This document shows, piece by piece, positions 23,758-29,405 of a stretch of 32,111 bases of DNA. Under the pieces are notes generated by a model, which searched no databases, was not told where the DNA came from, and was given only the letters and a program-made list of their open reading frames with translations. The stretch spans positions 1-32,111 of the forward strand of contig OMJH01000188.1 of NCBI GenBank assembly GCA_900299295.1. The letters are read 5' to 3'. The stretch comes from Bacteroidota bacterium. GTDB lineage: Bacteria; Bacteroidota; Bacteroidia; B-17B0; Aurantibacillaceae. A program made the position numbers and the translations under genes. The first letter of the stretch is position 1. Each line of letters opens with the position of its first letter.

Positions 23758-24465
23758 TTATTCTAATGAAAGATATTTTAAAAATTCGCTTTTAGTTTTT
23801 TCTTCCTGAAATTTTCCGCCATAAAACGAACTCACAGTCGCAGAGTTGATGTCCTTGATTCCGCGCGAGCTGACGCACAAATGTTTGGCATCAATCAGCA
23901 CAGCCACATCCTCCGTCTGTAGAATCTCCTGCAATTCATTGGCAATCTGAACAGTCAATCGCTCTTGCACCTGTGGCCTGCGCGCAAAATAATCTACAAT
24001 GCGATTTAATTTCGATAATCCGATCACCTTACCGGAGGAAATATAAGCTACATGCGCTTTTCCATAGATTGGAACGAAGTGGTGCTCGCAGTTACTGTAA
24101 AACGTAATGTCTTTCTCCACTAACATCTGATTGTACTGATACTTATTTTCAAATAACGCAACCTTCGGTTTATTTTCAGGATGCAATCCCTGAAAAATTT
24201 CTTTCACATACATTTTTGCTACCCGTCCCGGAGTTCCCCTTAAACTATCATCACGTAAATCAAGACCTAATACTTCCATTATCTCCCGAAAGTGATTTTC
24301 AATTTTTGAAATTTTCTCTTCATCACTAAGCAGAAAAGCATCAGGACGAAGCGGAGTTTCGATTCCTGTCCCGATGTGCTCGTTTCCAATGTCATCGTCA
24401 GAAATGGTTAGAAAACTATTTGTACCCTTAACGAAAGTGCTTAAATCGATGTTTGATGTTTGCAT
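23758..24465 (-). CDS. folE: GTP cyclohydrolase I
   Basis: A 235-residue enzyme that converts GTP to 7,8-dihydroneopterin triphosphate, the first step to folates and other pterins. Zinc and substrate residues are in FYSNCEHHFVPIYGKAHVAYI and in KHLCVSSRGIKD. Other family stretches are DDSLRGTPGRVAKMY and SKLNRIVDYFARRPQVQERL. The start is set at ATG 24465 (MQTSNIDLSTFV). An in-frame TTG at 24531 lies upstream of the predicted promoter. It is divergent from the photolyase run, whose CRY-DASH enzyme uses a folate-type antenna in known relatives, so shared regulation would be logical. An inverted repeat covers the common control region. Confidence 0.96.
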   Translation of the reverse strand: MQTSNIDLSTFVKGTNSFLTISDDDIGNEHIGTGIETPLRPDAFLLSDEEKISKIENHFREIMEVLGLDLRDDSLRGTPGRVAKMYVKEIFQGLHPENKPKVALFENKYQYNQMLVEKDITFYSNCEHHFVPIYGKAHVAYISSGKVIGLSKLNRIVDYFARRPQVQERLTVQIANELQEILQTEDVAVLIDAKHLCVSSRGIKDINSATVSSFYGGKFQEEKTKSEFLKYLSLE

Positions 24466-24483
24466 GTTTAAAAAATTGCTTTC

Positions 24484-24518
24484 CAAATGTAAACATTTTT
24501 TGTTTAACTTTGAACAAT
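24484..24518 (-). promoter_or_regulatory. Promoter of folE
   Basis: A perfect TACATTTG -7 element lies on the minus strand (24491-24484), with ATTG (24518-24515) 23 bases upstream as an imperfect -33 element. The predicted start is about 15 bases before ATG 24465. Confidence 0.5.
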
Positions 24519-24531
24519 TAATGTTAAACAA
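24500..24531. promoter_or_regulatory. Inverted repeat (candidate operator) between folE and the photolyase run
   Basis: TTGTTTAAC (24500-24508) and GTTAAACAA (24523-24531) are perfect inverted 9-mers separated by 14 bases. The left arm overlaps the photolyase -7 element and the spacer contains the folE -33 candidate, so one bound dimer could control both promoters. The regulator is not encoded in the window. Confidence 0.5.
24505..24512 (+). promoter_or_regulatory. -7 element of the photolyase operon
   Basis: TAACTTTG is a perfect TAnnTTTG match about 45 bases before ATG 24557. No -33 TTTG lies at normal distance, which would fit an activator-dependent or repressed promoter. Confidence 0.45.
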
Positions 24532-24556
24532 TTAAATATCCATAAAACCTAATAAG

Positions 24557-25882
24557 ATGGCAAACAACGAAAAAATCAAAATTGTCTGGTTTCGCAATGA
24601 CCTTAGGTTACACGATAACGCAGCACTCACAAGCGCCATTGAAACAGCAGATAAAATCATACCGGTTTATATACTTGATCCAAGAAATTTTCATGATAAT
24701 CAGTTCGGTTTTCAAAAAACCGGAATTTTCAGAACTCGTTTTCTATGGGATTGTGTTCATGATTTAAATAATAATCTTAAACAAATTGGGAGCGATTTAA
24801 TTATCCGTTCCGGGTATCCCGAACGAATTCTCCCTGAACTTTGTAAACAATTTTCAGTAACATCTGTTTACTACAATAAGGAAGTTGCGCCTGAAGAGAT
24901 TGCGGTTGAAAAACGACTGGAAAATGAACTGCTTAAAATTGATGTGAATCTCAAAGACACGTGGTGCAGTACACTTTATACAAAAAAAGAACTGGCATTC
25001 AGTATTCCACGAATGCCGGATGTCTTCGCAGACTTTCGAAAGAAAACAGAACGTGAGTCAGTTTGTTCTGCTCCTATCCCCGCGCCGGGAAAAATCGTTA
25101 CACCTGATATTTCTGAACCCGGTGAATTACCTCCTTTAAGTGATATCATTAATGAAGAATTCGTCGCTGATGAAAGAGATTCCAATCATTTTAAAGGAGG
25201 AGAAACCAATGCACTGATACATCTTCACAACTATTTTTGGGTCAGCCAGGATGTTCGTCACTACCATGATACTCGGAACGAGCTTGTGGGGAAATCCTAT
25301 TCCTCTAAATTCTCTCCATGGCTGGCTTTAGGTTGCTTATCGCCAAGAAGAATTTATCAGGAACTTAAAAAATTTGAATTGGAAGTTGAGGAAAACAAAT
25401 CCACGCAATGGTTGAAGTTGGAGCTCATGTGGCGGGATTTTTTTCGTTTCAGTATGGAAAAACATTTCGATAAGTATTTTACACTTACCGGAATTCGAAC
25501 TAAAAATTCAATGGAGCTATCCAACGACAAACGGAAATTTCTGCAGTGGGCTGAAGGCAGAACCGGAGTTGAATTTATTGATGCGAGCATGCATGAATTA
25601 AATAAAACGGGTTTCATGAGCAATCGTGCGCGCCAGGTTGTTGCCAGTTACCTCGTTCATGACATGGGAATCAATTGGCTGATGGGAGCTGCATACTTTG
25701 AGAGTAAACTTATTGATTACGATGTGTGCAGCAACTATTGCAACTGGGCTTACATATCCGGAGTGGGTAATGACCCACGTCCTGAACGCTATTTTGACGT
25801 CGCCAGGCAGGCAAGAACGTACGACCCGAAGGGTGAGTTCAGAAAATTATGGTTAAGCGGAGAGGAAAATTATGCTGCATAA
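24557..25882 (+). CDS. Cryptochrome/photolyase family protein, CRY-DASH type
   Basis: A 441-residue flavoprotein of the photolyase/cryptochrome family. The N-terminal antenna domain begins IVWFRNDLRLHDNAAL. The FAD-binding region includes FKGGETNALIHLHNYFW (about 214-230), KFSPWLALGCLSPRRIYQEL (about 251), ELMWRDFFRFS (about 290), GFMSNRARQVVASYLVHDMG (about 352) and DYDVCSNYCNWAYISGVGND. CRY-DASH hallmarks are TLYTKKELAFSIPRMPDVF in the linker and the ending RYFDVARQARTYDPKGEFRKLW. Known CRY-DASH proteins bind FAD and a folate antenna and repair cyclobutane dimers, chiefly in single-stranded DNA; some also signal. It is first in a six-gene run and its last codons overlap the SRPBCC gene by 11 bases. 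Confidence 0.93.
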   Translation: MANNEKIKIVWFRNDLRLHDNAALTSAIETADKIIPVYILDPRNFHDNQFGFQKTGIFRTRFLWDCVHDLNNNLKQIGSDLIIRSGYPERILPELCKQFSVTSVYYNKEVAPEEIAVEKRLENELLKIDVNLKDTWCSTLYTKKELAFSIPRMPDVFADFRKKTERESVCSAPIPAPGKIVTPDISEPGELPPLSDIINEEFVADERDSNHFKGGETNALIHLHNYFWVSQDVRHYHDTRNELVGKSYSSKFSPWLALGCLSPRRIYQELKKFELEVEENKSTQWLKLELMWRDFFRFSMEKHFDKYFTLTGIRTKNSMELSNDKRKFLQWAEGRTGVEFIDASMHELNKTGFMSNRARQVVASYLVHDMGINWLMGAAYFESKLIDYDVCSNYCNWAYISGVGNDPRPERYFDVARQARTYDPKGEFRKLWLSGEENYAA

Positions 25883-26333
25883 CCTGAAAGCCACTCAAAT
25901 TCTGAATTCCGACATCGATACTGTTTGGGAATTCATGAGTAACCCTTCCAATCTCTCGAAAATTACTCCGGAATACATGGGCTTTGAAGTTCATACTGAC
26001 CTAAAAGGAAGATCAATGTATCAGGGGCAAATCATTGAGTATACAGTTCGACCCCTGCTTGGAATTCCACTGCACTGGGTTACCGAAATCACGCATGTAA
26101 AGGAAAAGGAATATTTCGTTGATGAACAACGATTTGGTCCTTATTCGTTTTGGCATCACCAACATTGGATACTGCCGCATAAAAATGGAGTTGAAATGTT
26201 TGATGAAGTACATTATCGCCTGCCATTGGGACCCTTGGGAAAAATTGCCAACGCATTATACATTAAAAAACAATTGGAAGGAATTTTCCGTCACCGTTAT
26301 CAAGTGCTGAATAACATCTTCAATAAACCCTAA
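25872..26333 (+). CDS. SRPBCC-fold protein (often annotated cell division inhibitor)
   Basis: A 153-residue START/Bet v 1-like ligand-binding fold. It begins NLKATQILNSDIDTVWEFMS, the usual SRPBCC opening, then has ITPEYMGFEV, the run RFGPYSFWHHQHWILP, and a long C-terminal helix GKIANALYIKKQLEGIFRHR. SRPBCC proteins hold hydrophobic ligands in a deep cavity. Relatives in photolyase neighbourhoods carry the label cell division inhibitor without, to my knowledge, direct evidence. Its start codon lies within the CRY-DASH gene (11-base overlap), so the two are translationally coupled. Role unknown; a carrier for a chromophore or its precursor is one untested idea. Confidence 0.82.
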   Translation: MLHNLKATQILNSDIDTVWEFMSNPSNLSKITPEYMGFEVHTDLKGRSMYQGQIIEYTVRPLLGIPLHWVTEITHVKEKEYFVDEQRFGPYSFWHHQHWILPHKNGVEMFDEVHYRLPLGPLGKIANALYIKKQLEGIFRHRYQVLNNIFNKP

Positions 26334-26355: not shown

Positions 26356-27045
26356 ATGGAAAAAAATATTTTAATCGCAGGTGCTTCGTCAGCAATAGCA
26401 CTTGCCTCATCCGTAATTTTACAAAAGCAAGGGCATCGTACGATTGGATTAAGCACAAAACCTAACATTCCAGGCTATGATAATTTTTTTCACGTCACTA
26501 ATTACGAATCAGATTCGCTCCCTGAACTAGACGTTGTTATTGATGGACTTGTTTATTTCCCGGGAACAATCAATCTTAAACCTTTTGCAAGAATTACAAA
26601 CACTGAATTTCTACAAGATTTATCTGTGAATGCGCTCGGCGCGCTGAACGTACTCCAGCGTTATTTACCTCAGTTAAAAAAAGTGGATTCAGCTTCTGTG
26701 GTATTTATTTCAACTGTGGCTGTTCAAACCGGAATGCCTTTTCACTCAAGTATTTCATTTGCAAAAGGAGCCTTGGAGGGAATAGTTCCTGCGCTGGCCG
26801 CTGAGTTGGCTCCAAAAATCAGAGTAAATGCAATTGCTCCTTCTCTTACCAATACTGCATTAAGTGAACGTTTTTTAAACACGCCTGAAAAAATTGCTGC
26901 AGCCCAGCAACGAAATCCGTTAAAAAAAATAGGAACGCCCGAAGACGTTGCAAATGCAATTTGCTTTTTGCTGAGCGAAAATTCATCATGGATTACTGGT
27001 CAGATTTTATCCGTTGATGGCGGAATGCGAAACCTGAAACTTTGA
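26356..27045 (+). CDS. Atypical short-chain dehydrogenase/reductase lacking the catalytic Tyr
   Basis: A 229-residue Rossmann-fold SDR. The nucleotide loop is GASSAIALA instead of TGxxxGxG. The tetrad Asn is kept as Asn92 (VNALGALNVL). At the active site the usual Ser is Thr120 (FIST), the Tyr of YxxxK is Ile133 (SSISFAK), and Lys137 remains. The C-terminal part is normal for SDRs: RVNAIAPSLTNTAL, GTPEDVANAICFLLS, ITGQILSVDGG. Classical alcohol/ketone oxidoreduction is therefore doubtful. It may be a binding or structural member of the photolyase module, or may use another mechanism. It lies 22 bases after the SRPBCC gene and three bases before the flavin reductase gene. Confidence 0.85.
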   Translation: MEKNILIAGASSAIALASSVILQKQGHRTIGLSTKPNIPGYDNFFHVTNYESDSLPELDVVIDGLVYFPGTINLKPFARITNTEFLQDLSVNALGALNVLQRYLPQLKKVDSASVVFISTVAVQTGMPFHSSISFAKGALEGIVPALAAELAPKIRVNAIAPSLTNTALSERFLNTPEKIAAAQQRNPLKKIGTPEDVANAICFLLSENSSWITGQILSVDGGMRNLKL

Positions 27046-27048
27046 TGC

Positions 27049-27684
27049 ATGAGATACATAGATGCGCAGGAAATACTTGAATTTGAGCAACGATTTCGTG
27101 CCACCTTCATCAATTCTCTCGGCGGTTTCAAAAGCTTATGTCTTATTGGAACGGTGAATGAAAACTCCCTGACTAACTTGGCTGTCTTCAATTCTTTTTT
27201 TCATATCGGAGCCAATCCCCCGCTCTTCGGTCTTATCGTGCGACCGGATGCTGTTGAACGGCATACGTTGGAGAACATCCGTAAAAAAAAGTATTTCACG
27301 GTGAATCATGTAAACGAGAAAATCGTTAAGCAGGCTCACCAAACCTCCGCACGTTATTCGTTAGAACAATCTGAATTTACTGAAACAGGCCTTACTCCTG
27401 AATTCATAAATAACTTTTCTGCTCCGTATGTAAAAGAAAGTTTTATCAAAATTGGAGCGTATTGTATTCGTGAAATTTCCATTGAAGAAAACGGGACTAT
27501 CCTTTTGATTAACAGATTTGAAAATATTATCTGTCCTGAAAATATAATCGGACGCGATGGTTTTGTAAATCTTGAAATGGCCGGTAGCCTCACCTGCTCA
27601 GGACTCGACAGTTACCACACGACGAAACAAATCAGCAGGCTTTCGTATGCAAAGCCTGGAAAACCCGTCGAGCAAATTCCATAA
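27049..27684 (+). CDS. Flavin reductase-like (split-barrel FMN-binding) protein
   Basis: A 211-residue protein of the flavin reductase-like/flavoredoxin fold. It contains SLCLIGTVNENSLTNLAVFN (the FMN-binding opening of the split barrel), FFHIGANPPLFGLIVRPD, the ERHTLENIRKKKYFTVNHVN segment, and a late GSLTCSGLDSYHTTK. Members bind FMN and reduce flavins or other small acceptors. In this setting it could keep photolyase FAD reduced or act on a chromophore precursor; both are inferences. The start ATG 27049 is three bases after the SDR stop. It lies upstream of the DUF2256 gene by 28 bases. Confidence 0.85.
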   Translation: MRYIDAQEILEFEQRFRATFINSLGGFKSLCLIGTVNENSLTNLAVFNSFFHIGANPPLFGLIVRPDAVERHTLENIRKKKYFTVNHVNEKIVKQAHQTSARYSLEQSEFTETGLTPEFINNFSAPYVKESFIKIGAYCIREISIEENGTILLINRFENIICPENIIGRDGFVNLEMAGSLTCSGLDSYHTTKQISRLSYAKPGKPVEQIP

Positions 27685-27712: not shown

Positions 27713-27877
27713 ATGCGCAGTAACGGAAGAACCATTTCAAAAATTCACCTTCCGAAAAAAACTTGCCTTACCTGTCAGCGACCATTTTCGTGGAGAAAAA
27801 AATGGGAGCGAAATTGGGAGGAAGTGAAATACTGCAGTGATGCATGCCGAACGCAAAAAAAGAAGTATGAAAAATAA
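27713..27877 (+). CDS. DUF2256 mini-protein (zinc-ribbon-like)
   Basis: A 54-residue basic protein easily missed because of its size. It reads [20 protein letters not shown], then [16 protein letters not shown] and a Lys-rich end, which is the full DUF2256 signature. Cys18-x2-Cys21 and Cys41-x3-Cys45 probably bind one zinc ion. The function is unknown. The family is known to me mainly as a neighbour of photolyase-related genes. Its last 11 bases overlap the start of the FeS photolyase gene, so the pair is translationally coupled and probably functionally linked. Confidence 0.9.
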
Positions 27878-29405
27878 AATCCTGAGGCTCATACTAGGGG
27901 ATCAACTCAACTATCAGCATAGCTGGTTCCGTGAGCAACGCCCTGATGTAACTTATTTAATGATGGAAATGCGCCAGGAGACCGATTATGCAAGGCATCA
28001 TGCACAAAAGTTAATCGGATTTTTTGCCGCCATGTACAATTTTGTAGCGTTTCTGCGAAAATCCGGTCATCAGGTGATTTACCTGCAACTTCAAGACAAA
28101 AAAAACTTGCAATCACTTTCAGAAAATATAAAATCGCTGATTGCCGAAAACGGATTTACCCACTTTGAATACCTTTTACCGGACGAATTCCGAGTTGATG
28201 AACAATTGAAAAAATTAAGCAAAGAAATCAATATCGAAGTTTCATCCTCTGACACAGAACATTTTATTACAAAACGTGAAGATTTTCAGGAGATTTTTTC
28301 CGGAAAGAAAAAATACCTGATGGAAACCTTTTATCGCAAGTTAAGGCAACGCACCGGTGTTTTGATGGATGGCGATGAACCCGCAGGCGGTCGCTGGAAC
28401 TACGACCTGGAAAACAGAAAACCATTCAAGAGTCATCAGAAGGCAATTCCACCTTTAGAATTCAATCACGATTACAAGAGCATCTGGAAGGAAATCACAA
28501 AAGCAGGTGTCAAATCAATTGGAACTCCGTTGGATTCAAAATTTCCTTGGCCAACAACGCGAAAGGAATCGATTTCAGTACTCAATTATTTTCTGGATGA
28601 ATTATTAACGCATTTTGGCGAATATCAGGATGCGATGACATCCCGTTCGTGGTCGCTGTTTCATTCACGCATTTCATTTTCATTGAACACAAAAATGATT
28701 TCTCCACTGGAAGTTATTAAAAAAGCAGAGGAGAGATTCAGAAATAATCCTGAGCATTATACTTTACCTCAGGTAGAAGGTTTTATTCGTCAAATTTTAG
28801 GCTGGAGGGAGTACATGCGCGGAATTTACTGGGCAGAAATGCCGCAATTCTCAAATTTGAATTTTTTCGAGCACAAGCGAAAATTACCCGCATGGTTCTG
28901 GACAGGAAAAACAAAAATGGCCTGTTTACATCAAGCGATTACACAAAGCCTGGAACATGCGTATGCGCACCACATTCAGCGTTTGATGGTAACCGGGAAC
29001 TTCGCATTGCTGGCGGGTATAAACCCGGACGAGGTCGATGAATGGTACCTTGGAATTTACTGCGACGCGATTGAGTGGGTGGAAATAACAAACACAAGAG
29101 GGATGAGCCAATTTGCAGACGGCGGTATTGTGGGAACTAAACCCTACATTTCCAGCGCGGCCTATATCAATAAAATGTCAGATCATTGTAAAGGTTGTAC
29201 CTACGATTATAAAATTAAAACCGGTGAGAAAGCTTGTCCGTTCAACAGTTTGTACTGGAATTTTCTCGATAACCATAGAAAGAAACTTGAAAACAATCCA
29301 AGAATGGGAATGATGTATAAGGTTTGGGATAAGATGCAGGCAAATGAAAAGGAAAAAATAATTTTGCAGGCGCAAAAATTCTTTGATGAAATCAAAATTT
29401 TATAA
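27867..29405 (+). CDS. FeS-type prokaryotic (6-4) photolyase / cryptochrome-related protein (FeS-BCP)
   Basis: A 512-residue photolyase-related protein (DPRP family). It begins [17 protein letters not shown], typical of the group, and has FAD-domain stretches [34 protein letters not shown] and [19 protein letters not shown]. Four cysteines, Cys353, Cys441, Cys444 and Cys457 (the last three in HCKGCTYDY...KACPFN), have the same spacing as the [4Fe-4S] ligands I recall for Agrobacterium PhrB (350, 438, 441, 454). His368-His369 align with the PhrB active-site pair. Known members repair (6-4) photoproducts using FAD, an FeS cluster and a lumazine antenna. ATG 27867 is chosen inside DUF2256; an in-frame ATG ten codons earlier adds unconserved residues. 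Confidence 0.93.

Follow-up and report, generated by a model that had tools for sequence, protein, structure and literature searches.

The window, by which we mean the whole 32,111-nucleotide stretch analysed, contains a folE gene and a cryptochrome gene (cry) that are read divergently, and the 91 bp between them hold an inverted repeat. This arrangement raises the question of whether a single regulator, acting at that repeat, could switch pterin synthesis and photorepair together. The initial annotation, made from the sequence alone, had proposed a shared light- or stress-responsive switch of this kind. Here, the genes flanking the repeat, the repeat itself, its possible regulator and its recurrence in related genomes are considered in turn.

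Genes flanking the palindrome

To the left of the palindrome, here called P1, folE (23758..24465, minus strand) encodes a GTP cyclohydrolase I paralogue of 235 aa counted from the ATG (PF01227, 1.4e-64; TIGR00063). To the right, a run of five genes is found on the plus strand. The first, cry (24557..25882; PF00875/PF03441), was initially named photolyase, a name that has to be corrected, as its product is a DASH-family cryptochrome (525 bits against TIGR02765, for which the cut-off is 317). The following gene (25872..26333) has no Pfam match and encodes a product which we take to be SRPBCC-like; 26356..27045 encodes an SDR oxidoreductase; 27049..27684 encodes a flavin-reductase-like protein; and 27867..29405 encodes DPRP, a photolyase-related protein (PF04244, 2e-74).

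The naming of folE as a GTP cyclohydrolase I gene stands, but it is not the sole copy: the source assembly (2.8 Mb, 93% complete, 3.95% contamination) has three such genes, located in the window and on contigs C180 and C197. The folE of the window can therefore be regarded as a spare copy, which removes the objection that a repressor acting in the dark would starve the cell of folate. It is 41% identical to the C180 gene, which adjoins a gene named by eye as 6-pyruvoyl-tetrahydropterin-synthase-like. At up to three core mismatches, the palindrome is absent near the C180 and C197 genes in the stretches covered, of which the one on C197 ends at the gene. The C197 gene (L182) lies beside phage-terminase-like genes (by eye) and is possibly prophage-borne or a contamination.

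Palindrome and promoters of the intergenic region

P1 (24500..24531, without strand) has the form TTGTTTAAC-N14-GTTAAACAA, with the left arm at 24500-24508, the right arm at 24523-24531 and a gap of 14 bases. A TGTTTAA motif at 24465-24471 overlaps the folE ATG (24463-24465, minus strand). On re-reading the sequence, the positions noted earlier for the perfect 9-mers, their 14-base gap and the TGTTTAA at the folE start were borne out. The region is AT-rich, A and T making up 73 of its 91 bp. When it was shuffled 1000 times with dinucleotide composition kept, 165 of the resulting sequences contained an inverted repeat whose arms were 9 or longer and whose gap was at most 30, so that a shuffle test restricted to this region leaves P1 unsupported. 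Since an inverted repeat alone is not rare here, the case for P1 as an operator rests on recurrence. By chance, the window should contain 0.14 copies of the specific 9+14+9 word at up to three mismatches; P1 is the sole exact copy in the genome, and the word recurs across the class with a recognizable consensus, as described below. A second, degenerate palindrome (P2, 24464..24496, without strand) over the folE start is a weak possibility; it has three mismatches in 16 core bases, and its spacer of 15 is the second commonest spacing of the palindrome in relatives.

The -7 element of Bacteroidetes promoters has the consensus TAnnTTTG. A candidate cry -7 element fitting this consensus, TAACTTTG (24505..24512, plus strand), falls inside the left half of P1, as the overlap suggested in the initial annotation had it, at offset 6, which is a recurrent position. 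A candidate folE -7 element, TACATTTG (24484..24491, minus strand), also fits the consensus and lies just downstream of P1 towards folE, at offset 41. Among 71 gene-site pairs, TAnnTTTG clusters relative to the palindrome at offset -4 (10 pairs), offset 6 (4 pairs) and offsets 38-42 (13 pairs), compared with about 0.2 per position. Judged by these clusters, the palindrome overlaps the promoters of its targets. As cry falls into the offset-6 group and folE into the 38-42 group, a single palindrome can serve the two genes, in line with the initial annotation. A generic sigma-70 promoter scan gave nothing above chance (2 found against 2.1 expected), and promoters of that kind were rejected.

A CarH-like regulator in the same genome

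With up to three mismatches, the palindrome occurs at nine places in the genome. The sole copy that differs from P1 by one mismatch (C170:29159-29190) ends 2 nt before the ATG of P0001, a MerR protein of 297 aa (L009:817-1710). Its gene (merR) heads the operon merR-crtI-crtB, which is followed by a crtZ-like gene, and about 12 nt ahead of crtI on C170 there is a further copy of the palindrome, which has two core mismatches. A MerR/CarH-type regulator encoded outside the window had been only a suggestion of the initial annotation, together with a search of the genome for the same arrangement at carotenoid or MerR genes; P0001 and the copy before its operon agree with both. In tetranucleotide usage, C170 is as close to the window (0.929) as two parts of the window are to each other (0.922), which ties the two together; loci of other genomes gave 0.49-0.86.

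Two further copies in this genome were observed: one on C59 (L006), exact to the degenerate word, lies 19 nt before a nitroreductase gene, and one on C119 (L007), with 1 mismatch, lies at the start of a ferredoxin-NADP-reductase-like gene (named by eye).

P0001 has an N-terminal MerR winged-helix domain (PF13411, MerR_1, 3.5e-15) and a B12-binding_2 domain (5.5e-9), both over the cut-off, while the B12-binding (cobalamin Rossmann) domain, at 0.072, is below the Pfam cut-off (13.4 vs 32.1 bits). A genome search with the B12-binding domain missed P0001, returning three frames of 747 to 1223 aa, and the MerR search found it. The best solved-structure matches are to Thermus thermophilus CarH (3whp and 5c8d, E about 2e-18), and the alignment reaches into both cobalamin regions. 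The score against the NCBIfam CarH model NF052513 was 88.6 bits, below the equivalog cut-off of 400.

Residues W131, E141, H142 and H177 are described as key to AdoCbl binding in CarH (PMC11796333). All four contact residues are present in P0001, and they are kept in 42, 43, 41 and 43, respectively, of 43 aligned rows, which include P0001 and in which at least two genomes are present twice (e.g. G106 and G090). His132, the light-state axial ligand of T. thermophilus CarH (residue roles also from PMC10442372), is not kept: P0001 has Gln, and Q, S, G, A, L and T are the commonest residues in the 43 rows, Gln most often. For the H132A variant of T. thermophilus CarH, a largely tetrameric state in the light is reported (PMC10442372). 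Since His132 is not kept and that variant stays largely tetrameric, either P0001 must have a different light step or it may respond to some other signal.

Recurrence across the class

An exact search for the word TTGTTTAAY-N14-RTTAAACAA, covering 295 genomes from the class, gave 113 sites in 86 genomes, whereas the reversed word, used as control, was found in 1 of the 295. In its conserved form, TTGTTTAA is repeated in inverted orientation across a spacer of fixed length: 14 was observed at 113 sites, 15 at 20, 13 at 1, 8-12 at 8, and 16-20 at 3. The spacer-13 version of the word gave a single stretch in a contig scan, a Methanobrevibacter contig.

CarH-like MerR proteins (relatives of P0001, E <=1e-15) are encoded by 184 of the 295 genomes. 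Of the 86 palindrome-bearing genomes, 84 encode such a protein, against 100 of the 209 others (Fisher p 5e-19), a p value that overstates independence because the genomes are related, although they span many families. Conversely, the exact palindrome is absent from 100 of the 184 MerR-bearing genomes. The palindrome, in the source genome as the copy with one mismatch to P1, is located at merR itself there and in loci L098, L124 and L172. The single genome of the same genus (78% completeness) gave no cry, MerR or palindrome match, and a plasmid search gave only partial photolyase-like matches.

Genes adjoining the palindrome in relatives

Neighbouring genes were surveyed at 75 listed sites of the 113, with duplicate reference rows and neighbour cluster 15, that of the right-hand gene at L167, left out of the counts. 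None of these 75 sites lies inside a gene, a gene start is found within 400 nt at 74 of them, and at the 55 listed sites where just one flank has a near gene the median distance from palindrome to start codon is 29 nt. Photorepair-operon, pterin, carotenoid, rhodopsin/BCD (beta-carotene dioxygenase) or MerR genes adjoin 31 of the 75 sites. The number rises to 54 when MerR, cry-operon, FolE, PTPS, carotenoid, rhodopsin or ECF sigma genes are counted, and 9 sites have other or unknown genes only, without fasciclin or DUF4397. As ECF sigma genes are common in the Bacteroidetes phylum, the 23 sites of the 54 that adjoin them are weaker evidence; 14 of these 23 follow merR at a distance of no more than 1.2 kb. 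Upstream of some ECF sigma genes (L075, L077, L095, L105, L106 and L117), the palindrome is present in tandem, with 42-44 bp from copy to copy, an arrangement that suggests cooperative binding.

By kind of gene, the listed sites adjoin ECF sigma genes (23), fasciclin (8), homologues of the SRPBCC-like gene (7), PTPS (6), CrtI (6) and DUF4397 (5). The cryptochrome/photolyase family accounts for 3 sites, one being that of the window and the other two, at 203 and 328 nt, being weaker cases. TonB receptor and TetR_C_23 genes adjoin 3 sites each; FolE (the window's included), CrtZ-like (by eye), rhodopsin, SDR, DUF2911 and HTH_27 genes adjoin 2 each; and MerR, flavin reductase, DPRP, BCD, DUF2805/TIGR03643 and nitroreductase genes adjoin one each, with 17 rows assigned to 'other'. 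By these counts, each gene of the window's operon has a homologue beside a palindrome of its own in some relative. In L143 and L144, an SRPBCC and a PTPS gene diverge from a single palindrome, so that pterin synthesis and the cry cluster are coupled as they are in the window. In L170, L173 and L174, several palindrome copies accompany a cluster of merR, crtI, crtB, folE, cry, DPRP and SRPBCC genes. Both in this genome and class-wide, the palindrome is associated with genes for photoprotection and with that of the CarH-like protein.

The arrangement of the window itself was not recovered. None of the 10 larger relative loci has a divergent folE/cry pair; locus L168, whose cry is the nearest relative (G017, 53% identity), lacks the palindrome at two core mismatches across 16 kb; and no copy at two core mismatches was found in L169, L171 and L175. 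The initial annotation had named absence of the repeat from this intergenic region in relatives as a refutation, and on this point the loci speak partly against the shared switch. The palindrome does stand at cry-operon and pterin genes of relatives.

Among other arrangements observed, a rhodopsin gene and a BCD gene diverge from a single palindrome at L134. Fasciclin (L116, L122, L123, L130 and L138) and DUF4397 (L071, L076, L101, L107 and L157) proteins are also frequent neighbours of the palindrome.

Proposed light switch and rival explanations

We propose, with good though not full confidence, that P1 is the operator of P0001, a CarH/LitR-like MerR repressor bound in the dark and released in the light, which would control together folE, the cry operon and merR-crtI-crtB. 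P1 is a genuine repeat and, very probably, an operator and the docking site of a vitamin-B12-type light sensor, since in related bacteria this sequence is also found at the gene for the sensor and at many genes of sun protection. In the dark, cobalamin-loaded P0001 would bind P1 and cover the -7 element of cry together with the stretch in which the -33 element of folE has to be located, keeping both promoters off or low. Light would then break the cobalt-carbon bond and P0001 would leave P1, so that folE and the cry-SRPBCC-SDR-flavin reductase-DPRP operon would be made together with the palindrome-bearing merR-crtI-crtB. The spare folE may serve the DASH cryptochrome with additional pterin/folate for its antenna, with a housekeeping folE elsewhere covering basal needs. 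Direct binding, dark repression, light sensing through cobalamin and the part of the pterin as antenna are steps that we infer. The shared light or stress switch first suggested for folE and the photolyase operon gains support from the recurrence of the palindrome at cry-operon, pterin, carotenoid and rhodopsin genes of MerR-bearing relatives.

The most serious rival accepts the palindrome as the operator of P0001 and questions only the signal, which might be redox or singlet oxygen, or light perceived by a partner photoreceptor, as in the class II LitR that works with a LOV protein. The loss of His132 and the weak Pfam match of the Rossmann part point in this direction, as does the Pseudomonas class II LitR, which is described as working through a LOV protein (PMC9758184). 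On the other hand, the AdoCbl-binding residues W131, E141, H142 and H177, whose roles are given in PMC11796333, are kept in nearly all 43 rows, and we judge a non-cobalamin signal unlikely. It is less probable still that the palindrome belongs to a different regulator, such as an SOS repressor or the adjoining ECF sigma factor, and merely co-occurs with the MerR gene. Such a reading would suit the ECF sigma genes at 23 of the 75 listed sites, and photorepair could belong to a DNA-damage response. Yet the word is palindromic in the manner of repressor sites and stands at merR in four loci, this genome's included, while 14 of the 23 ECF sites follow merR closely. As for the SOS box, the Bacteroidetes motifs given in PMC8565304 are GGA-N5-TCC and CTAA-N5-TTAG; the P1 word fits neither, and an SOS box was rejected.

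Chance alone, as an inverted repeat in an AT-rich intergenic region, would be in keeping with the shuffles of the gap, in which arms of at least 9 are common enough. Against it are the 113 exact copies in 86 of 295 genomes, compared with one genome for the reversed word, and the sharp preference for one spacing; on these grounds it was rejected and is hardly credible.

Returning to P1 as the operator of a light-responsive P0001, a wider proposal can be put forward only tentatively, at somewhat less than even chances: a class-wide light regulon of Bacteroidota, in which a distinct CarH-like branch without His132, releasing DNA by other cobalamin chemistry, would act at the 32-bp palindrome (in places at tandem copies some 42-44 bp from one another) and jointly switch on repair by the DASH cryptochrome, dedicated pterin synthesis (a folE paralogue, PTPS), carotenoids, rhodopsin with its retinal-forming enzyme, and a relaying ECF sigma factor. 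As His132 is missing, the photochemistry of this branch would have to differ from the textbook case. The palindrome would offer a sequence handle, readable in any genome, for genes that many environmental Bacteroidota may switch with light. It would also tie a spare pterin-synthesis gene to cryptochrome repair, and it makes the regulation of Bacteroidota rhodopsins, carotenoids and photorepair directly testable.

Comparison with known systems

No published account of this palindrome or of a Bacteroidota CarH regulon was found in open-licence PMC, where titles and abstract starts were searched by word queries and not by motif, which makes this weak evidence of absence. In Chryseobacterium lacus, carotenoids are made in the light, and a CarA/LitR-like gene was guessed by the authors (PMC7064467). 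The Bacteroidetes LexA-like SOS repressors share with the present case palindromic operators, DNA-damage genes and the phylum; their words, as quoted above from PMC8565304, differ from P1 and are located upstream of dinB/umuD-type genes.

The Pseudomonas class II LitR proteins PplR/PmlR are closer in their targets. According to PMC9758184, folE, phrB and cryB are light-induced genes of the LitR family in Pseudomonas, and PplR/PmlR are repressors with promoter-overlapping sites and a regulon that includes photolyase, CryB, FolE and SDR. They differ in that the PplR1 site is T(G/A)TACA-N12-TGTA(C/T)A and that class II LitR, which acts together with a LOV protein, retains in its C-terminus only a single cobalamin domain of the two (PMC9758184).

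CarH of Thermus thermophilus and Myxococcus xanthus, an AdoCbl-dependent light repressor, resembles P0001 in its MerR domain, in the positions W131, E141, H142 and H177 of a region that in P0001 is putatively cobalamin-binding, in adjoining carotenoid genes and in an operator that overlaps the promoter. Unlike CarH, whose operators are described as three or four 11-bp direct repeats of the form nAnnTnnACAn (PMC8156234), P0001 would recognize a 32-bp inverted repeat; in addition, its His132 is replaced, its score is far below the CarH equivalog cut-off, and the palindrome regulon would also include cryptochrome, pterin, rhodopsin and ECF sigma genes. The CarH/LitR light regulon is thus a known kind, and the palindrome operator was not met in the open-licence PMC literature searched. 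The switch proposed here is best called CarH/LitR-like, as its predicted logic is that of these light regulons and its operator differs from theirs.
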